Origin: Ignavibacteria bacterium
Lineage (GTDB): Bacteria > Bacteroidota > Ignavibacteria > Kapaibacteriales > UBA2268
Assembly: GCA_026417135.1 (NCBI GenBank)
Contig: JAOADV010000010.1
Location: 277-64,276 of the forward strand
DNA length: 64,000 nt
Direction of reading: 5' to 3'
Shown: in pieces, positions 54,167 to 63,618 of the stretch
Layout of the letters: each line of letters opens with the position of its first letter
Position numbering within the stretch: position 1 is the first letter of the stretch
Notes under the pieces: model-generated
The model's database searches: none
What the model was told of the DNA's origin: nothing
Seen by the model: only the letters and a program-made list of their open reading frames with translations
Program-made: the position numbers and the translations under genes

Positions 54167-56155
54167 TTAGGCGTTGACCTTTGTAATATCTTCAACTTCT
54201 ACTTCAAGAACTTCTTCGAGTTTAGCTATGTTGAGGATTAATGTATTAATTTGTGAATACGAGTTGACCTTTGCTTTAAAGTAACCCAAAACTTGGGAAG
54301 GAATAAAAGCACTCGACATTCGAAAATCTGAATAATCTATACAAAGGTTGGACCCTATCGACATTATTTCGCTTCCGACACCCCTTTTATTTAAAGCTTT
54401 AAGCTTAATGGCTACTTCCCAAAAATTTTTTTCCGATGAACTTTCGTCTTTTTTCGACTTAACGAATTTCCGAATTTCATTGTATGCGTGAAGAGTATAG
54501 GCAAAGTTCAAAAATTCCCCAAGCAACAAATTCTCGTTCGCACCAAAAATCAATTCAACTTTATCCCCGCTTTGCAATTTATAATCGTGAGATTCAATCT
54601 TACTAACATTTCCATTTGTGAACTTTTTCAAACCTATAAACTTAATTGCATCTTTGCCTTTCACCTTAAAAGCAAGGTCGATTGGGGTCGAACCTTTTGG
54701 AAGAAAATATGTATTTCCATCGTTGACCAACCTTACATTGACAACTTCGACTGGATAAATCTTAGAAGAAAATTTAAGTAAAAAATCAACTTTATTTGCA
54801 AGTTTACTATCTTGTAATATGTCCGCAACAATTTCTAAGAAAGCCTTATAATCGTTTTTGTCGAAATCTTTAAATCGATTGATAAAATCGACCATTCTTT
54901 CGAATTCTTTCTTTTTTGGTTCTTCGACAACTGATGAAACAACCACTTCGAAAATAGAATCGTCTTGATTTTTAAATGTATATCTTAATAATTGCAAATC
55001 ACTTTGATTTTCCCAAATATTTACGGTTCCGAAGCTAATCAGTTGTTGCACTTGAATTTTGATAAAACTATTTTCGAGTGTGGTTTTCAATCTTTGCAAA
55101 AGGGTTTCATCGGACAAATGACTTTTGCGAGGAACATTAACAACAAAGTAATAGTGGCAATAACTCGAGTCGATAATTTTAAGTTCAAGAGAGCTTGCTT
55201 GGTATAAATCGTATAATGTATTATGCTCGGCAGTTAAAATCAAATTTTCGGAAATTTCAGCTAATAAATCGTTCAATCTCGACTCCAAATCGTTTCTTAC
55301 TGCCATAGCCAAGAATTTCTTCTTTTCAGCATCGTGCAATTCAAGAAGGTACTGATATTTCTTTTCCGCATCAGATTCATTATCGGAAATGATGTGAAAA
55401 AGACAATAATCAAGCAACTGTCTTGCTTGTTCGTGAAAGCCTAAACCTCGAAGCAAAGGCACATAAATATTTATAGTTTGAAGAGCAATTTCGCGCCGCC
55501 TCTTTGGATTGGATATTCCATACAATGTCAAAATATTATGGAACCTATCAGCAATTTTGACGATAAAAATTTTAGGATTTCTTAAGCCATTTGCAAAAAT
55601 TTTCTGAATGGTAGCAACCTCTTGTTCATCGTAGTTTAAATCTCTATCAATTTGTATATTGAATGAAAGGTCTAATTCATCGGATGAAGTAATTTTCGTA
55701 ACTCCATCGACAATATCGGCAACTTCGCTCCCAAAAATTTCTCGGATATCGTCGAAAGCTATAAACTCGGGTTTATCTTCTGGGGCGTCGTGTAAAAGTG
55801 CCGAAATAATAGTGTTTGCATCAAAGACTCCAAACATTTCGAGAATGATATTAGCGGTCTCGAAAAAATGAGTATAAAACATAGTCCCATCACGCCGTCG
55901 GTCATTTTTAAAAAGTTCGTAAACTAAATCGACAGCTTTTGCAATTTTTCCTTTTGTTTCTGGTTCTAACTCATTTCGAAGCCTCTTTTCACAAGCAGTT
56001 AGAAAAAGAGCCTTGTCCTTTTTGAAATTCCCACTGTATTTTGGAGAATAATTTAGCGATATCAATTTTTGAACGATTTTCAACGAAGGCTCAGCTTGCC
56101 TACTTTTCCGTTTTGGTTTCTGTTCCGAAAGTTTGGTTTTTCCCCTGCCATTCAT
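54167..56155 (-). CDS. RelA/SpoT-like protein with HD hydrolase and TGS domains but no synthetase
   Basis: A 662-residue RSH-family protein. The HD domain (about residues 60-225) keeps the (p)ppGpp hydrolase residues: His96 in FYTHF, His122-Asp123 and Glu126-Asp127 in LLHDAPED, VDGVTKI, and Asp203 in IADRFHN. A TGS domain near 480-545 (PKGSTPIDLAFKVKGKD) and a short C-terminal ACT-like region follow. The stretch between them, where a synthetase would be, lacks the RFKDYI, YQSLHT and EVQIR motifs. I infer hydrolysis of ppGpp without synthesis, or a purely regulatory role. It is transcribed alone or with the upstream TamB gene 70 bases away. Confidence 0.85.
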   Translation of the reverse strand: MNGRGKTKLSEQKPKRKSRQAEPSLKIVQKLISLNYSPKYSGNFKKDKALFLTACEKRLRNELEPETKGKIAKAVDLVYELFKNDRRRDGTMFYTHFFETANIILEMFGVFDANTIISALLHDAPEDKPEFIAFDDIREIFGSEVADIVDGVTKITSSDELDLSFNIQIDRDLNYDEQEVATIQKIFANGLRNPKIFIVKIADRFHNILTLYGISNPKRRREIALQTINIYVPLLRGLGFHEQARQLLDYCLFHIISDNESDAEKKYQYLLELHDAEKKKFLAMAVRNDLESRLNDLLAEISENLILTAEHNTLYDLYQASSLELKIIDSSYCHYYFVVNVPRKSHLSDETLLQRLKTTLENSFIKIQVQQLISFGTVNIWENQSDLQLLRYTFKNQDDSIFEVVVSSVVEEPKKKEFERMVDFINRFKDFDKNDYKAFLEIVADILQDSKLANKVDFLLKFSSKIYPVEVVNVRLVNDGNTYFLPKGSTPIDLAFKVKGKDAIKFIGLKKFTNGNVSKIESHDYKLQSGDKVELIFGANENLLLGEFLNFAYTLHAYNEIRKFVKSKKDESSSEKNFWEVAIKLKALNKRGVGSEIMSIGSNLCIDYSDFRMSSAFIPSQVLGYFKAKVNSYSQINTLILNIAKLEEVLEVEVEDITKVNA

Positions 56156-56225: not shown

Positions 56226-59200
56226 CTACCAATAAGAACCATACTTTAATTTTATCTCCCAATCTTTTTGATTTTTTTGAATAGTTTGTGTCAAATGGGA
56301 ACTTCTACTTAATTGAACAATCATATTTGGGAAAAATTGTGGAAGAACAGCATTAAGCGGAAGTTCAATGCTCAATTCATTATTATTCAAGAGGTCCGCC
56401 ATTGTTCCACCAAAATACCAGTTAAGTCCGAGAAAGGTCCCACTCATCCTAAAAGTTGCCTTATCCCAAGATGTAACGGTCGAGCTCGGCAATTGAATAC
56501 TTGCACTTGAAATTAAACCGGTTTCGGATAAAGCATCAGTGATTAACTTTGAAAGTAAAGCCGAGCTCCCAGAAGACGAAACTTCGGTCAAGTTGAAATT
56601 TCTTCCACCGCCTCTTTCGAACTCATTTTTGGTTTGGCCAAAAGCCAAAAGAAAGATTGCATCTTGTGTAATTTTTGTCGAGTCATCAGAAATTGTTTGT
56701 CCGTCCAGCGAATATTCAAAACGTAAATTAGGTTTCTCCTTTGTTCCAGTTATATAAATAGTAACAATAAAGTTTCTGACTGCATCATTGTAAAAACTTT
56801 GACCTTCGTATATTGCCTTCAAATTAAGTTCTGGATTATCGATTGAGCCAGTGGGGAATTTAATTTCTCCGTCAGTTCTAAACAACTTGATAAACTTTAG
56901 TGTCGAGCCTTCTCGGACTTGCAAATTGCTGCCAGTCAATAGGTAAATATTGTTCTTGGGGTCCGAAAAATAGCGGATGGAGGCATTAGGGTCGTTAAAT
57001 CCTATTAATGCAAAAATTTGCCCTAAGCTTGTAACATCCAATGTCAATTCAATTTGTTGCTGTATCCTTAGGCTAACATCAATTACGAAATTGTTAGTAG
57101 TTCGTTCGGGTTCTCGATTGCCATTTTTGGATGATACAGTTTCATTTGTATCCTTAACCTTTTTTTCCGGACTCGAAATTTCGTATCGCACGAACGACTC
57201 TTGTACTGAATGCTCGGACGACATACTTGGCATAAACAACTTTCCTCGCGTTACAGTTACCGTCCCTTCAATTCCAGATTCACTATTTCTGTTGAAATAA
57301 CGCAAGGAGTTTGGAAAAGTCGAAACAACCAAATCGCCATATAAATTTGGCATAGACCGAGCAGACGCAAGGCTGAGAACCTTAAAATTATTTGTTGAAA
57401 AAACTATATCAATTTCATCTAATTTGTTACTTATAAAATATATTTTACCCTTGATATTAGCATTACCATTTTTTAAATCTTCGGGGTAGTTTTCGAGAAA
57501 AATATTTGTCAATTCAATTTCATTCTCTTTAAAAGAAAGAAAACCTTTTGCCTTATATCTTAGATTATTTCCAAGCAATAAAAACGAAGAATTAATTATT
57601 TCGGAGTTACCGCGGATTTTTAAATCATCGGGCAAATTCCCATATATCTCGAGGTTTGCATTTAAAGAACCTGATAATTCATCAACTTGCTTAGAAACGA
57701 ATGGACCTAACAATGAAAGGTCAAAGTTTTCTAAAATCAAATATCCTTTGACTGTTTCGTTCTCATCAAGATTGAACTCAAAATCTTTGAAATTAACAAC
57801 TAAGGGCAATTTCGTTGCTTCAAAGGATAATAAAGAGTTTTGTCTGTTTCTTAACTCCATTTTAAACTTTAAATTGCTTTCCGAATATTCAGCATTAAAC
57901 TTTAAGATACCCAAATCTCGTTTTTCGTAAATAAGATTATTGGATTTAAGGTCCAAGCTAACAATTGGTTCAGAAAGAGTGTTTTTAATTTTAATCCGAA
58001 AACTTTCAACTTTTCCATCGAAAAAATGGATTTTCGAAATCGAGTGGTCTTTGGGGAAAAGTTTATGAAAATCAGTTAGAGGTATAGAATTTACTTGAAA
58101 TTCAAGGTCCAAATTTTCATCAAAATAAAATTTACCAGAAACATTAATCTTTTCGGCATTTTCGCGTACTAAGTTAAACTCTTCAAAACTTATATACTCT
58201 GGATAAATTCTTAAAACTATGGCTTCTTCCTCTTCCCATTTGAATATATCTAAATAATCGAACGAAAGGGTGTTAAAATAAACCTTAATGTTATCGGGGA
58301 AAAACTCTGCGGTAGCATTGCTCCTTAAACCAAAAGTCGAGTTAATTTCGGTATTCAAATTACATTTCAACTCCTTTTGGGTAAAAGCTAAATCAATTTG
58401 CAGAAAATCGAGAAAAGTTTTATCAAGAAAAAGTTTATTTTCCGATGTTGCCCTGAGAAATAAGTATTGTAGTTCAGCAAGAGAATCAACAATTCGTACA
58501 TAATATTTGGCGCTTAAATTTACGTTATTTGCCCTGTAGCTTTTGTGATTTAGCATCACAGACAAATAATTTGTATTTAGAGTATCCAGAGAAAAAAACA
58601 CTTCGTCATTGCTACTTTTAAATTGCAGATTTGCAGTTCCAGAGAAAACGATATCCCTTTGAATTAATATCGATAGCATAGCTACATCACGAACACTCAA
58701 CTTCAAAGTAAAATTTGCGGGCGAAAACAAATTGACTCTTGGTTGTTTACTTTCTTTATTTTGATGGTTTGAACTGTCGAAATTCGAAACGGTTTTTAAA
58801 GATGTAAATTTATCAACCAAAACCGACTCGAGAATTTCAAATTGATAAGAAAAGCTTTTCAGCAAAGAAGTTAGTTCGTACTCCCCTTCGACGAAAATAT
58901 TCATCATATCGGAAACCACTTGTATTGTTTTTTTACCATTCGTATTATGATTAACAAACAAATTAAAATCGAAGGGGAACAAAGCTCTGTCTGCCATTTC
59001 GAATTCCGAAATATGGCTTTTTAATTTTAGATGTAAATTATCTGGGTCGAACCCAATCCCCTCTATACTAAAACTTCCAGTCAGATTTGTGATATAGCTC
59101 TTTTGCAAATCCTTAAACCGAGTTAAGTTCAAACCATTAAGCTCTAAGGTTCCAAAATATTTTGGCAAATCAGAATTTTTGAAATCTAATTTGCCAGTTA

Positions 59201-60713
59201 CTTTAATCTCTGCAGTTTCATTTTCAGAAAAAGTAGTATCGTTTGAATAAATAATTGCTAACAAATCTTTTACATCGATTACTCCATCGTCAAAGCTTGC
59301 ATCGAGTTTCAAGGAAAAATTATCCAGACCTTGAAAATTTGTTCGACCAGTTTGAACATCAAGATTTAAATAGCCATCAATAGTTGAAATTTCATCTAAA
59401 GTCAAGGCCCCAGATGCAATTCCGGACAAATCCGACGAAGGCAAATTAAGCCCGAATTTCTCCACGTCGAGATTATTGAACTTGGCGTTAAAATGCAATT
59501 TCGAAAAACGCTCTAACTTCGAGGTAAAATCCAAAATCCCAAGCGAAGTTTTAACTTTGCCTTTAACAGAAATATCTTGGCCTAAAACTTCAAAATTTAG
59601 CCCATTCGAGTAAATAAAATCATATTGGAAAGGAAAATTAGAAAGTGCGGGGAAAATACTTTTAATATCGCCTTCGTAAATCTTTACATCGCTTAAGAAA
59701 AAGTCAATCTCATTGGATTTTGCACTGATTTTGGTATATCCATTTACTTGAAAAGAGGACTTCCCAAAACCAATTTCAAACGACTTAAAATCGAATCTTT
59801 CCGAAATTAACAACTCGCCAGAGAAGGAAATCAAAGCAGAAGGATTCAAGGGTATTTTTGTAAACCTGATAGCATCTTCAATGGAAATTACAGAATTGCC
59901 AAAATTGATGAGAAGTTGAAAATCCTCGAGATTTAGCAATGCTTTTTCTGCTTTGATATGGGAATAAGGTGTTTCGAGCCTAAAATTTTTCAAAGTGGCG
60001 GTATCACCGATAATGTGTATATCGCCAGCTAAATTCTCCAATCGAAATTTTGAGTTACTTTCGAAAAATTGCAAGCAAGAAAAATTGAAAGAATACTCTT
60101 CGCTTTTTAATAAAATTTTCGCAAAGGATTTTATCCCAACTTCTTCAAGGTAAAGATTTGTCGGGGAAAATTGCCCGTTACCAGTATTTTTGTTAAAATC
60201 TCGAAAAACAAAAATTCCTTGGTTCAACCAAAAGTCGTTAACAAATATAGAAATATCTGGCGGTTCACTTTTCGATTTGTCCTTAGAAACGAAAATTTTC
60301 TCGAAATTCCAAAGAGAATCGCCATATAACTTTATTATTTTAACTTTTGGTGTTTCAAGATATAACTTTTTTACAAAAATCTTCCTTTCGAAAATTGGCT
60401 GAAAATCCCAATCGACAATTAACAAATTAGCAGAAATGAGAGTGTCGTTCGATGTTGTCAATAAAATATTTTTAAAGACAAATCCTTCAAAAATATTAAA
60501 ACTAACATAATCGAAGGTTAGATTGGCATTAATGTTCTCGTTGACAAATTCTCGAATAGTATTAATAACAAACCTTTTCGAAAAGTCGAAAGTCAAGGTA
60601 AACGTCAGGAAAAGTGAAAAAAATAAAAAGAAAGCGACAATAGCAACAGAAACCTTATAAAAAAGGTTCAAAATTGAAAACTTCTTCGTTTGTTTCAGTT
60701 TTGTTTCTTCCAT
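56226..60713 (-). CDS. tamB: TamB/AsmA-like translocation and assembly module protein
   Basis: A 1495-residue envelope protein. One N-terminal transmembrane helix (about residues 20-42), then a very long series of beta-strand repeats, the groove-like shape of AsmA/TamB proteins, and a C-terminal DUF490 domain. Near the C-terminus are VREGSTLKFIKLFRTDGEI, FIVTIYITGTKEKPNLRFEYS and DAIFLLAFGQTK, which match the TamB terminal block. It would span the periplasm and help in outer membrane protein insertion or lipid transport. TamA is not in the window. The start overlaps engB by 19 bases. Confidence 0.88.
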   Translation of the reverse strand: MEETKLKQTKKFSILNLFYKVSVAIVAFFLFFSLFLTFTLTFDFSKRFVINTIREFVNENINANLTFDYVSFNIFEGFVFKNILLTTSNDTLISANLLIVDWDFQPIFERKIFVKKLYLETPKVKIIKLYGDSLWNFEKIFVSKDKSKSEPPDISIFVNDFWLNQGIFVFRDFNKNTGNGQFSPTNLYLEEVGIKSFAKILLKSEEYSFNFSCLQFFESNSKFRLENLAGDIHIIGDTATLKNFRLETPYSHIKAEKALLNLEDFQLLINFGNSVISIEDAIRFTKIPLNPSALISFSGELLISERFDFKSFEIGFGKSSFQVNGYTKISAKSNEIDFFLSDVKIYEGDIKSIFPALSNFPFQYDFIYSNGLNFEVLGQDISVKGKVKTSLGILDFTSKLERFSKLHFNAKFNNLDVEKFGLNLPSSDLSGIASGALTLDEISTIDGYLNLDVQTGRTNFQGLDNFSLKLDASFDDGVIDVKDLLAIIYSNDTTFSENETAEIKVTGKLDFKNSDLPKYFGTLELNGLNLTRFKDLQKSYITNLTGSFSIEGIGFDPDNLHLKLKSHISEFEMADRALFPFDFNLFVNHNTNGKKTIQVVSDMMNIFVEGEYELTSLLKSFSYQFEILESVLVDKFTSLKTVSNFDSSNHQNKESKQPRVNLFSPANFTLKLSVRDVAMLSILIQRDIVFSGTANLQFKSSNDEVFFSLDTLNTNYLSVMLNHKSYRANNVNLSAKYYVRIVDSLAELQYLFLRATSENKLFLDKTFLDFLQIDLAFTQKELKCNLNTEINSTFGLRSNATAEFFPDNIKVYFNTLSFDYLDIFKWEEEEAIVLRIYPEYISFEEFNLVRENAEKINVSGKFYFDENLDLEFQVNSIPLTDFHKLFPKDHSISKIHFFDGKVESFRIKIKNTLSEPIVSLDLKSNNLIYEKRDLGILKFNAEYSESNLKFKMELRNRQNSLLSFEATKLPLVVNFKDFEFNLDENETVKGYLILENFDLSLLGPFVSKQVDELSGSLNANLEIYGNLPDDLKIRGNSEIINSSFLLLGNNLRYKAKGFLSFKENEIELTNIFLENYPEDLKNGNANIKGKIYFISNKLDEIDIVFSTNNFKVLSLASARSMPNLYGDLVVSTFPNSLRYFNRNSESGIEGTVTVTRGKLFMPSMSSEHSVQESFVRYEISSPEKKVKDTNETVSSKNGNREPERTTNNFVIDVSLRIQQQIELTLDVTSLGQIFALIGFNDPNASIRYFSDPKNNIYLLTGSNLQVREGSTLKFIKLFRTDGEIKFPTGSIDNPELNLKAIYEGQSFYNDAVRNFIVTIYITGTKEKPNLRFEYSLDGQTISDDSTKITQDAIFLLAFGQTKNEFERGGGRNFNLTEVSSSGSSALLSKLITDALSETGLISSASIQLPSSTVTSWDKATFRMSGTFLGLNWYFGGTMADLLNNNELSIELPLNAVLPQFFPNMIVQLSRSSHLTQTIQKNQKDWEIKLKYGSYW

Positions 60714-61300
60714 AATTCGACTTGTCTTTTAATGATAGCCAGCAACTCGGTTCGCCCTTCCTTTGTAATCGAAGAAAAAGGAATAATATCAACAAGAAAA
60801 TTACAATTTTTTAGCAAAAACTCAAACTCACTTTTCCGTTTTTCAAAAGTCTCTTTCGATATTTTATCACTTTTTGTTAAAGTTAAAACATAATTTCTAC
60901 GATATTCTTCGAAAATTTCAATTTGAGCGAGGTCGAGTGCTTGAGGTTCCAAACGAGAATCGACCAAAAGAACAACTAAAATCAAATTTTTTCGTGTGGT
61001 TAGGTAACTTAAATTTAAACTTTGCCAATGTTCTCTATCTTTTTTCGAACGAAGTGCAAAACCGAAACCGGGCATATCGGCAAAAATATATTTGCTGTCG
61101 ATTAAGTAAAAGTTGATTTGCCGAGTTTTCCCAGGCTTTGAACTCGTGTAGGCTAAATTTTTTCTCAAAACCAAAGTGTTAATCAATGATGACTTCCCTA
61201 CATTCGAGCGTCCGATAAAAGCAATTTCCGGATAATTTAGCTCTGGAAACTTACTTTGGTCATCAACACCATAAAGAAACTCTGCATCCAAAAGTTTCAT
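60695..61300 (-). CDS. engB: Ribosome biogenesis GTPase EngB (YihA/YsxC)
   Basis: A 201-residue GTPase needed for large ribosomal subunit assembly. G1 GRSNVGKSSLIN, G2/G3 region KPGKTRQINFYLI and DMPGFGFA, and G4 TKSDKIS are present, the last with Thr in place of the usual Asn. G5 is PFSSITKEG. The ATG overlaps the stop of the beta-propeller gene as ATGA, and the end overlaps tamB. Confidence 0.95.
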   Translation of the reverse strand: MKLLDAEFLYGVDDQSKFPELNYPEIAFIGRSNVGKSSLINTLVLRKNLAYTSSKPGKTRQINFYLIDSKYIFADMPGFGFALRSKKDREHWQSLNLSYLTTRKNLILVVLLVDSRLEPQALDLAQIEIFEEYRRNYVLTLTKSDKISKETFEKRKSEFEFLLKNCNFLVDIIPFSSITKEGRTELLAIIKRQVELWKKQN

Positions 61301-63618
61301 CGAACCACATAGATAGGAAATGTTTGAAAATCGTTCGTTGGGAAATATATTCGCAGAAAATAAACACCATTTTCCAAGTTTTGAAGTTCAAATTGGTGAA
61401 AATTGTATATTCCTTCGCGAAATTGCCTCTCGAAGAAATTATTGATTTCTTTACCCAAAGTATTGTAAATTTTTATTATCGGAGTCGATACCAACTCGCC
61501 CATAATTATTAGGTTCACAAGATTAGTAGTCGGATTTGGATAAGGTAAACTAACAAACGAATAACTTTTGCGATAAAAGGATATTGTTTTACCAGAAACC
61601 GAAATCTCGCAGCTACTTTCAGCATTGTAAGTATTTGGAATTGCGACAGCCTTCAAGACTATATATTGGTTCCAACATCTATCGAAAATTATTACCGTAT
61701 CTGTTTCAATTCCAAGCTTATTCGGATAATAACATATTGTTATTTTCTTTGTTTCGTTACCTTTCCATACCAATGGAAGTTGAGATGGGGGGACCGAGAA
61801 AGCAGAATTACCAACAATGAAGAGTGAATTTATAGTAACCTCGTTCGAAGTTTTGTTCTTCAAATATAAATCGAGACACTTCAAAATGCCCACTGCAACA
61901 CTATCGAAAAATAAAATATTGTTTCTTTCTGAATCAGAAAGAATTATCTCGAAAACATTCGAGTCGCTACGAACATCGACCAAAATAGTATCTGTGAAAG
62001 TATTGCATCCGTTTTGAGTTACAACTTTAGCAAAGTAAGAACCAGAATCATAAACAACAAATCTTGAACCTTTCGCAAGAGGACCAAAATTTGGAGATTT
62101 AAACCATTCAGCCAACTTAAGTCTTGGGTCCAAAGTAAAAACAACAGAATCCCCTTTGCAAATATTCAACTTACCGCTGTGCTGAATCCTTGGTCTTGGC
62201 TCGAAAATAACATCCAAAACCGCACTATCAACACAGCCAAATTCATTACTTGAAATAACTACGTATTTTCCCGGTTTGGTAATTAAAATCGTGTCTTTTT
62301 CCCCAGTGTTCCAGCGACTAAACTTACCAGTGCTTTTATACCAAATTTTTAAAGTATCCCCTTCGCAAAGATAAACTGGAGAAGGGGTCGACAAGTTTAT
62401 TTTAGGTTTAGGATAAAAGTAAACATTTACTCTTGCAGGAACAATACTATCGCATTCTGAATCCCAAGAAACAAGCTCATAAGTCCCACTTTTAGTTACC
62501 TTAATTTCTTTTACCACAGCATTGGTCGACCATTGATAAAAAGCGTTTGCGTTTACTGCGCGTAAAGTAATTGTATCACCTTCGCAAGCAATTGTGTCGG
62601 GATAGTAAGCAATTTTCGAAATAACTTTCTTGAACCCAGTGAATTTATATATTCCATTTCCAACAACCCAACCCAAGGTATCATTGATAAACCAAAAATC
62701 GTCGAGCGAGACACCGGGGTCGATACCGCAATTTTTTAAGGACCAAGTCCTTCCTCCATCGGATGTAAAGTAAACTGCGCGGTCCCATCCACAAACCCAA
62801 CCGCGAAGAGAATCGTGAAGAAATGCCCCGAACATAGATATATTCGTCGGAAAGTCATTCCAGCTTTTACCAAGGTCGCGTGAACTTCGCACACCACCAG
62901 AATTCCCACCACCGCCACAACCCACGGAATATGGAACAACAATTGTATTACCAGATATCCATAGGTCCTCTTGCCAATCGTTATTTCCAGATTTACTAAA
63001 CACTTGCCAATTCCTACCACCATTTGTAGTTTTCCAAATCCAACCACTACTTGTAGCATATCCCAACCCATCACGAGAATACAAGATTACATCTGTCAAC
63101 CCAGAATTTGGAAAAAAATCGATTTGGGTAACGTATGCCCAACTATTGCCACCATTTGTCGTTACAAAAAATCTTTGTGGGGTTATACATCCACCACCAA
63201 CAACTATACCATAATTAGGGTCAACAAACCAATTTCCCCACAAATCCTCAGCTTGTCGTGGAGTTATGTCGAACCAAGTAGCTCCACCATCAGTAGTTTT
63301 ATAAATCTTTCCAAAACCATCGGAACCAATACCAGAAGTATATCCAATTCTTTCGTTAGCAAAATTTATATGTTCAAGTTGATAAGCTCCACGAATCATC
63401 GTCCCTTGCCAGGTTCTCCCATAATCCGTTGTTCTTAAAACTCTGCCATCGTATCCACAAACCCAGCCATAATTGGGTTTGTCTGGTAAGAAATACATTT
63501 CCAACCAGTAAGACCTATCGTATGGTGGAGGAATATTTTTGACCTTTTCCCACTGACTAAATACGTTTGTGGCAAAAAGAAAAATAATCAGAGAAATATG
63601 AATAATATTTACTTTCAT
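61297..63618 (-). CDS. Secreted YCF48-like beta-propeller protein with type IX sorting domain
   Basis: A 773-residue exported protein with signal peptide residues 1-21 (ending FSQ). Residues 25-330 form BNR/YCF48-like propeller repeats with GYDGRVLRTTDYGRTW, IYKTTDGGATW, FVTTNGGNSW, IWKTTNGGRNW and YFTSDGGRTW. Three PKD/Ig-like modules follow, each with a CEGDT or CKGDS opening. The end, PYPNPTTNLVNL to GVYFLRIYF, is a type A sorting domain. It is probably a surface or secreted protein exported by a type IX system. A GGGA site precedes the ATG. Its 3' end is coupled to engB. Confidence 0.9.
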   Translation of the reverse strand: MKVNIIHISLIIFLFATNVFSQWEKVKNIPPPYDRSYWLEMYFLPDKPNYGWVCGYDGRVLRTTDYGRTWQGTMIRGAYQLEHINFANERIGYTSGIGSDGFGKIYKTTDGGATWFDITPRQAEDLWGNWFVDPNYGIVVGGGCITPQRFFVTTNGGNSWAYVTQIDFFPNSGLTDVILYSRDGLGYATSSGWIWKTTNGGRNWQVFSKSGNNDWQEDLWISGNTIVVPYSVGCGGGGNSGGVRSSRDLGKSWNDFPTNISMFGAFLHDSLRGWVCGWDRAVYFTSDGGRTWSLKNCGIDPGVSLDDFWFINDTLGWVVGNGIYKFTGFKKVISKIAYYPDTIACEGDTITLRAVNANAFYQWSTNAVVKEIKVTKSGTYELVSWDSECDSIVPARVNVYFYPKPKINLSTPSPVYLCEGDTLKIWYKSTGKFSRWNTGEKDTILITKPGKYVVISSNEFGCVDSAVLDVIFEPRPRIQHSGKLNICKGDSVVFTLDPRLKLAEWFKSPNFGPLAKGSRFVVYDSGSYFAKVVTQNGCNTFTDTILVDVRSDSNVFEIILSDSERNNILFFDSVAVGILKCLDLYLKNKTSNEVTINSLFIVGNSAFSVPPSQLPLVWKGNETKKITICYYPNKLGIETDTVIIFDRCWNQYIVLKAVAIPNTYNAESSCEISVSGKTISFYRKSYSFVSLPYPNPTTNLVNLIIMGELVSTPIIKIYNTLGKEINNFFERQFREGIYNFHQFELQNLENGVYFLRIYFPTNDFQTFPIYVVR

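Follow-up and report, generated by a model that had tools for sequence, protein, structure and literature searches.

Two long RSH proteins that divide the synthesis and the hydrolysis of (p)ppGpp between them are known from Moraxellaceae, in which SpoT[Hs], a hydrolase-only long RSH that keeps its TGS domain, is paired with RelA[hS] (accessible text of PMC3153485 and PMC9974481). For Acinetobacter baumannii SpoT, the hydrolase-only state has been shown, together with a regulatory pseudo-synthetase, in the available part of PMC9974481. In the SpoT proteins of Haemophilus ducreyi and Actinobacillus pleuropneumoniae, an internal deletion removes the helical and CC domains and the ACT domain is kept, and the RSH atlas lists further long RSHs without helical/CC domains (both from the accessible sections of PMC3153485), so that these domains are a usual, rather than an absolute, feature of long RSHs. 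In Bacteroides and Porphyromonas, which carry Rel and RshB, the hydrolase of Rel is described as degraded in the accessible text of PMC6994654, and the HD domain of RshB as divergent in that of PMC3153485. Our literature search, with most subscription journals outside its reach, found no description of the RSH type reported here (class C below) and no paper on Kapabacteria and ppGpp.

Here we analyse a 662-aa class-C long RSH encoded at 54167..56155 on the minus strand of the window, that is, the whole stretch of 64,000 nucleotides under study. On its residues, this protein is very probably a dedicated (p)ppGpp hydrolase that derives from a bifunctional Rel, with a dead synthetase and with a partner that synthesises; we therefore refer to it as a predicted monofunctional hydrolase. 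The gene has an ATG start and an uninterrupted frame, and a pseudogene reading of 54167-56155 was rejected, as the frame is intact and the HD domain is conserved in five species.

The HD hydrolase domain (aa 74-236; 55448..55936, minus strand) is matched by Pfam HD_4 with an E value of 8.6e-22. An earlier note, made from the letters of the DNA, had read an intact hydrolase site here, and all six of the residues it named (H96, H122, D123, E126, D127 and D203) are in place at the positions it gave, with R87 and N207 present too. In RelSeq numbering, we take the hydrolase residues to be R44, H53, H77, D78, E81, D82 and D144. All seven are kept in 5/5 genus orthologues among the matches listed, the 662-aa protein having at least four such orthologues among those matches. 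A phmmer search of the PDB returned Rel, SpoT, RelA and small hydrolases, in which the HD part was matched and, for some, also the TGS part; the NCBIfam model spoT_relA scored 142 bits against a cut-off of 499, with its best stretch at aa 77-319.

The remainder of the protein follows the plan of a long RSH in part: the HD domain is present, the synthetase is present as a fold, and TGS and ACT lie C-terminally, whereas the helical and conserved-cysteine (zinc-finger) domains of long RSHs are absent. With 662 aa and several further domains, the protein does not match the single-HD, ~200-aa format of small alarmone hydrolases. Behind the HD domain come the pseudo-synthetase (aa 257-416, limits approximate; 54908..55387, minus strand), which is discussed below, and a helical linker that joins it to TGS (aa 417-470; 54746..54907, minus strand), with predicted helices at 416-427 (of low confidence), 433-448 and 455-466. 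This linker occupies the place of the SpoT 'Core', a name we apply by analogy with the accessible text of PMC9974481. The TGS domain (aa 471-537; 54545..54745, minus strand) is degenerate. Its presence, as claimed in the earlier note, is borne out by a Pfam match at 475-536 (E 9.4e-5), but the match is borderline, barely above the cut-off (22.8 versus 22.2 bits), and the histidine of the IHxxxG motif is gone.

A short helical linker without CC cysteines (aa 538-576; 54428..54544, minus strand), recognized from the TGS-to-ACT length and the gapped CC columns, stands where long RSHs carry their helical and zinc-finger/CC domains; the segment between TGS and ACT measures 44 aa, against a median of 198 in seven outgroup Rels. 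The C terminus forms an ACT/RRM fold (aa 577-660; 54176..54427, minus strand), which was absent from the earlier description. By sequence it gives only a weak ACT_4 match in Pfam, below the cut-off (E 0.017); by fold it matches the ACT domain of Chlorobium Rel (3ibw; Foldseek E 8.1e-3, TM 0.82) and that of M. tuberculosis Rel (6lxg; VIA-align Z 12.8).

The earlier note had also seen no recognizable synthetase in about 260 residues between HD and TGS. The gap between the two Pfam matches is closer to 240 residues and the region has a fold of its own, as described below; the absence of a recognizable synthetase is upheld. RelA_SpoT (PF04607) was unlisted for the protein at a maximum E of 10, a setting at which the HMMER filters drop most weak matches, and none of four synthetase patterns was found in the middle region, the sole pattern match lying outside it at residue 4. 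Only one of 19 diagnostic synthetase residues is kept, E403, the equivalent of E323, with the alignment uncertain at the most eroded motifs. The synthetase residues R241, S247, D264, R269, E323 and Q325 are given here in what we take to be RelSeq numbering.

A structure model built from the 662-aa protein and four same-genus orthologues, the alignment being free of other RSHs, reached a mean pLDDT of 76.7; adding 17 further RSH proteins to the alignment gave a second model, of pLDDT 80.7, in which helices and strands follow one another in a similar order. In Foldseek, the five-sequence model is matched best by four chains of 7qpr (lowest E 1.2e-21), a full-length SpoT that we infer from its paper to be the A. 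baumannii protein, followed by RelA and Rel. The domains match, but the overall domain arrangement disagrees with that of full-length SpoT, as the full-length alignment has a TM score of 0.41 and an rmsd of 21. In VIA-align, the coverage of which is essentially aa 43-416 and 577-658, the top row is 6yxa (Z 26.1 over 429 residues), and model residues 37-416 fall on the catalytic half of S. aureus Rel (7oiw_A) with Z 25.8, 312 of 327 residues and an rmsd of 5.9. As most hydrolase-only entries align over only 141-175 residues, about 140 residues past the hydrolase fit the synthetase fold. An unrelated insert between HD and TGS, a candidate we considered, is ruled out by the fold matches of the five-sequence model.

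Profile comparison leads to the same region by steps. The middles of the genus match those of other class-C proteins with an E value of 7.5e-5 and a probability of 62%, against 0.034 at best in five column-shuffled controls. Compared directly with intact synthetase profiles they reach only 0.07-0.14, and a wrong-domain control scored better (0.019). The class-C middles of genera g14 and g17, in turn, match outgroup synthetases at 1.8e-9 (wrong-domain control 0.0027), and those of the remaining genera at 1.1e-43. The homology of the genus middle to the synthetase is thus shown stepwise, through other class-C proteins. On the model and these profiles, the middle region is a pseudo-synthetase, with the predicted synthetase fold retained and the active site gone; the profile and structure check proposed in the earlier note has therefore returned a synthetase fold and no complete active site.

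The same note had proposed a search of the genome for a second RSH, and one is there. The genome (2.24 Mb, 63 contigs, 98% complete) contains a single PF04607 gene and two genes for HD_4 proteins by profile search, which found no other PF04607 synthetase or HD_4 hydrolase. The sole PF04607 gene, on contig C33, encodes a partner RSH of 771 aa with all 19/19 synthetase residues and a broken hydrolase motif, in which HDxxED reads HDxxGK and the N148 position is a glutamate. E. coli RelA, in which the hydrolase is inactive, is also without HDxxED (accessible text of PMC8012599). With two HD_4 genes and the site of the partner broken, the 662-aa RSH is the only HD_4 protein of the genome with intact hydrolase residues and, since intact and broken sites are reciprocal, the partner probably writes and the 662-aa RSH probably erases. 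Two Ppx-GppA proteins were also found in the same genome.

We surveyed the arrangement across the family, that is, Kapabacteria-type Bacteroidota; NCBI taxonomy places Kapaibacterium in Bacteroidota, Eximiradiia, Kapaibacteriaceae. The sample comprises 124 RSH proteins from 54 family genomes and, as an outgroup, seven Rels of the same order but outside the family, 131 in total, of which 112 formed the first residue set and 19 were added later. Open reading frames shorter than 280 aa (first set) or 250 aa (later set) were left out, as were a truncated copy of the partner RSH (L032, from the residue counts), four PF04607 matches outside classes A-C (G076:C52, G061:C85, G032:C43 and G016:C588) and, likewise, the ~200-aa HD_4 matches. 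Within G016:C588, the weak PF04607 match at 1657-1983 (E 9.3e-7) lies in a 1975-aa open frame. The residue counts cover the family and outgroup proteins, a narrower set than the wider scan of 197 genomes of the class.

Proteins with RKSKDR at six positions were assigned to class A or B and those without it to class C. Because the sorting uses this synthetase motif, the counts of synthetase residues in A and B are partly definitional; the hydrolase counts, and the count of proteins with both sites, are independent of the rule. Class A has 51 proteins in 27 genera, class B 21 in 12 genera, and class C 52 in 51 genomes and 26 genera. A and C occur together in 49 of the 54 genomes; of the other five, G031 has only C, G032 only A, G062 B with C and G068 A with B, and G060 has none. 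G025 has two class-C copies, L019 and L081. The combination of intact hydrolase, lost synthetase and retained TGS, which the earlier note had called unusual, thus characterizes a class present in 51 of 54 family genomes rather than one odd gene, and it has a precedent in the TGS-bearing SpoT[Hs] of Moraxellaceae.

When classes are ignored, none of the 124 family proteins has both sites intact (HDxxED with R241, D264, E323 and Q325). HDxxED is intact in 0/49 readable class-A proteins, 0/20 of class B, 48/50 of class C and 7/7 outgroup Rels. The full set of seven hydrolase residues is present in 48 of the 52 class-C proteins; of the other four, two are fragments at contig edges and two lack E81, with R44 missing as well in one of these. 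On the synthetase side, R241, S247, R269 and Q325 are lost in 52/52 class-C proteins and D264 in 41/52, and the E323 position is a glutamate in 46/52. The decay is graded, from one of the 19 residues kept, in the 662-aa protein, to 10, with many class-C proteins of other genera still holding 7-10; in g1, g14 and g17, class C gives no PF04607 match in 12/12 genomes. Within the genus of the 662-aa protein, mean identity (five proteins each) is 63% in the HD domain and 71% in the synthetase for class A, against 59% and 28% for class C, so that the constraint is reversed between the two classes.

The pattern is less clear-cut in some relatives. HDxxED has changed conservatively in part of class A, to HNxxDE in 14/49 and HDxxDE in 3/49 readable proteins, and the loss of hydrolase is therefore less certain there than in the HDxxGK partner. 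HNxxDE recurs in several genera (for example, L131, L078 and L042) and might keep some function. In genus g3 (L123 of G006 and L102 of G030), class C reads HDxxID and lacks E81, while class A is HNxxDE in both genomes, so that a simple writer/eraser picture may fail; neither G006 nor G030, each with only two HD_4 matches, shows a canonical intact HD hydrolase. Ten family genomes encode a further HD_4 protein of ~200 aa, in most cases with a score under the cut-off. Class B (for example, L034, L043 and L047) is a second synthetase-type RSH with a median length of 683 aa, in which the hydrolase residues are erased and H312 is replaced by glutamine in 21/21.

The sensing parts have changed alongside. 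The zinc-finger/CC columns are gapped in 52/52 class-C proteins; CC loss is not confined to this class, as the CC residues are complete in only 30/51 of class A. The histidine of TGS IHxxxG is replaced in 52/52 class-C proteins and present in 51/51 of class A, 21/21 of class B and 7/7 outgroup Rels. RelA binds the ribosome through its zinc finger and RRM, and uncharged tRNA through TGS (accessible text of PMC8012599). Having lost the zinc finger along with the histidine of TGS, class C is probably off ribosome control and would not read starved ribosomes.

The sorting into classes is supported by a quick tree of 84 rows, in which A, B, C and O each group separately on one side of a branch (SH-aLRT 100), and class B stands apart from A and C at the end of a long branch. 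A second, careful tree has 43 rows, omitting 41 of the 84 (all of class B, the long-branched g1, g14, g17, g3 and g9, and a Colwellbacteria row), and agrees for A, C and O. Class C there falls outside a group of class A and outgroup Rels, with support of 95/83, but a constraint that unites A with C is not rejected (p-AU 0.214), and the tree is compatible with C splitting from A inside the family or earlier. In both trees, the rows of which contain neither proteobacterial SpoT nor Bacteroides RshB, class C falls with Bacteroidota Rels.

Among the neighbours of the gene in the window, Pfam recognizes a metallophosphoesterase, a nitroreductase and an ABC-transporter ATPase. The 1495-aa protein encoded directly upstream (56226-60713, minus strand) has no Pfam match at E 0.001, and a 773-aa protein (61297-63618, minus strand) carries a Por secretion tail, the type IX secretion sorting signal, with weak BNR/YCF48-type matches. 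An operon partner was considered and rejected, as the window neighbours were not found again next to the gene in the three other genus loci with usable flanks (L124-L126); L125 has one distant match to another window open reading frame (22% identity), and the flanks in other genera show only matches of the ABC-ATPase and secreted-protein types.

The suggestion of a dedicated alarmone hydrolase, raised in the earlier note, is the best reading of the predicted sites and their reciprocal partner. The HD domain, judging by its conserved residues, would bind a metal ion and remove the 3'-pyrophosphate of (p)ppGpp, and the dead synthetase fold would pack against the hydrolase and probably tune it, as in A. 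baumannii SpoT. Synthesis and breakdown would then sit on two proteins, with the ACT fold and the pseudo-synthetase as likely places for another input.

Three other explanations have to be weighed. The first, which we consider unlikely, is that the substrate of the 662-aa RSH is a relative of (p)ppGpp, for instance (p)ppApp or pGpp, instead of or besides (p)ppGpp itself: substrate choice is not fixed by sequence, and the HD fold is common to the (p)ppApp hydrolase 7smg (Z 15.6), small alarmone hydrolases and MESH1, but the best matches of the protein are Rel and SpoT, and the one PF04607 synthetase of the genome would otherwise be without an HD eraser. Chances are slimmer still that the protein serves chiefly in regulation, as a pseudo-enzyme that would bind the partner synthetase and control it. 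In favour of this, the middle and C-terminal regions diverge freely here, and long RSHs in general are regulators with several domains; a non-catalytic role, however, would not require the HD domain to be the best conserved part, or the seven hydrolase residues to persist as they do in the genus and across class C. That a divergent synthetase remains active, leaving the 662-aa RSH bifunctional, has the least in its favour, since this reading is rejected on the residues counted above, lost throughout class C and down to one of 19 in the 662-aa protein with no synthetase pattern in its middle, although the fold and E403 remain.

A broader proposal, to which we attach about even weight, is that the family abolished the bifunctional long RSH and that its eraser shed the ribosome- and tRNA-reading parts, with another input setting breakdown and only synthesis hearing the ribosome. 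Breakdown would then respond to a partner protein, or to a small molecule acting at the ACT fold or the pseudo-synthetase. The gene of the 662-aa RSH is predicted to be indispensable for as long as the partner synthetase is functional. The 26 genera form a series of degrees of decay in the dead half, which lets one ask which parts of a long RSH a hydrolase needs without selection for synthesis or ribosome sensing. The family would also provide an apparent separate natural case of the full split between (p)ppGpp synthesis and breakdown, earlier known from Moraxellaceae.

Set against the described systems, the 662-aa RSH, hydrolase-only by its residues, shares with A. baumannii SpoT[Hs], as the available text presents it, a dead pseudo-synthetase, the retained TGS and RRM/ACT domains and a synthetase-only paralogue. 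It differs from Moraxellaceae SpoT[Hs] in belonging to another phylum, in having a ~45-aa linker for the helical/zinc-finger region with the CC cysteines and TGS histidine lost, and in a pseudo-synthetase that, in its genus, gives no PF04607 match; the two are probably of separate origin. SpoT of H. ducreyi and A. pleuropneumoniae is described, in the accessible text, as SpoT[HS], that is, with a synthetase, unlike class C. Like Bacteroides and Porphyromonas with their Rel and RshB, the family is a Bacteroidota group that carries two long RSHs, of which one has a degraded hydrolase, but the other copy in those genera is described as bifunctional in the sources available. SAH, MESH1 and RelH share the HD fold, with PDB chains of ~180-200 aa, whereas the 662-aa RSH retains pseudo-synthetase, TGS and ACT. 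Class C combines a dead synthetase with a helical/CC deletion, family-wide and in another phylum, and so looks like a separate and more eroded counterpart of SpoT[Hs].
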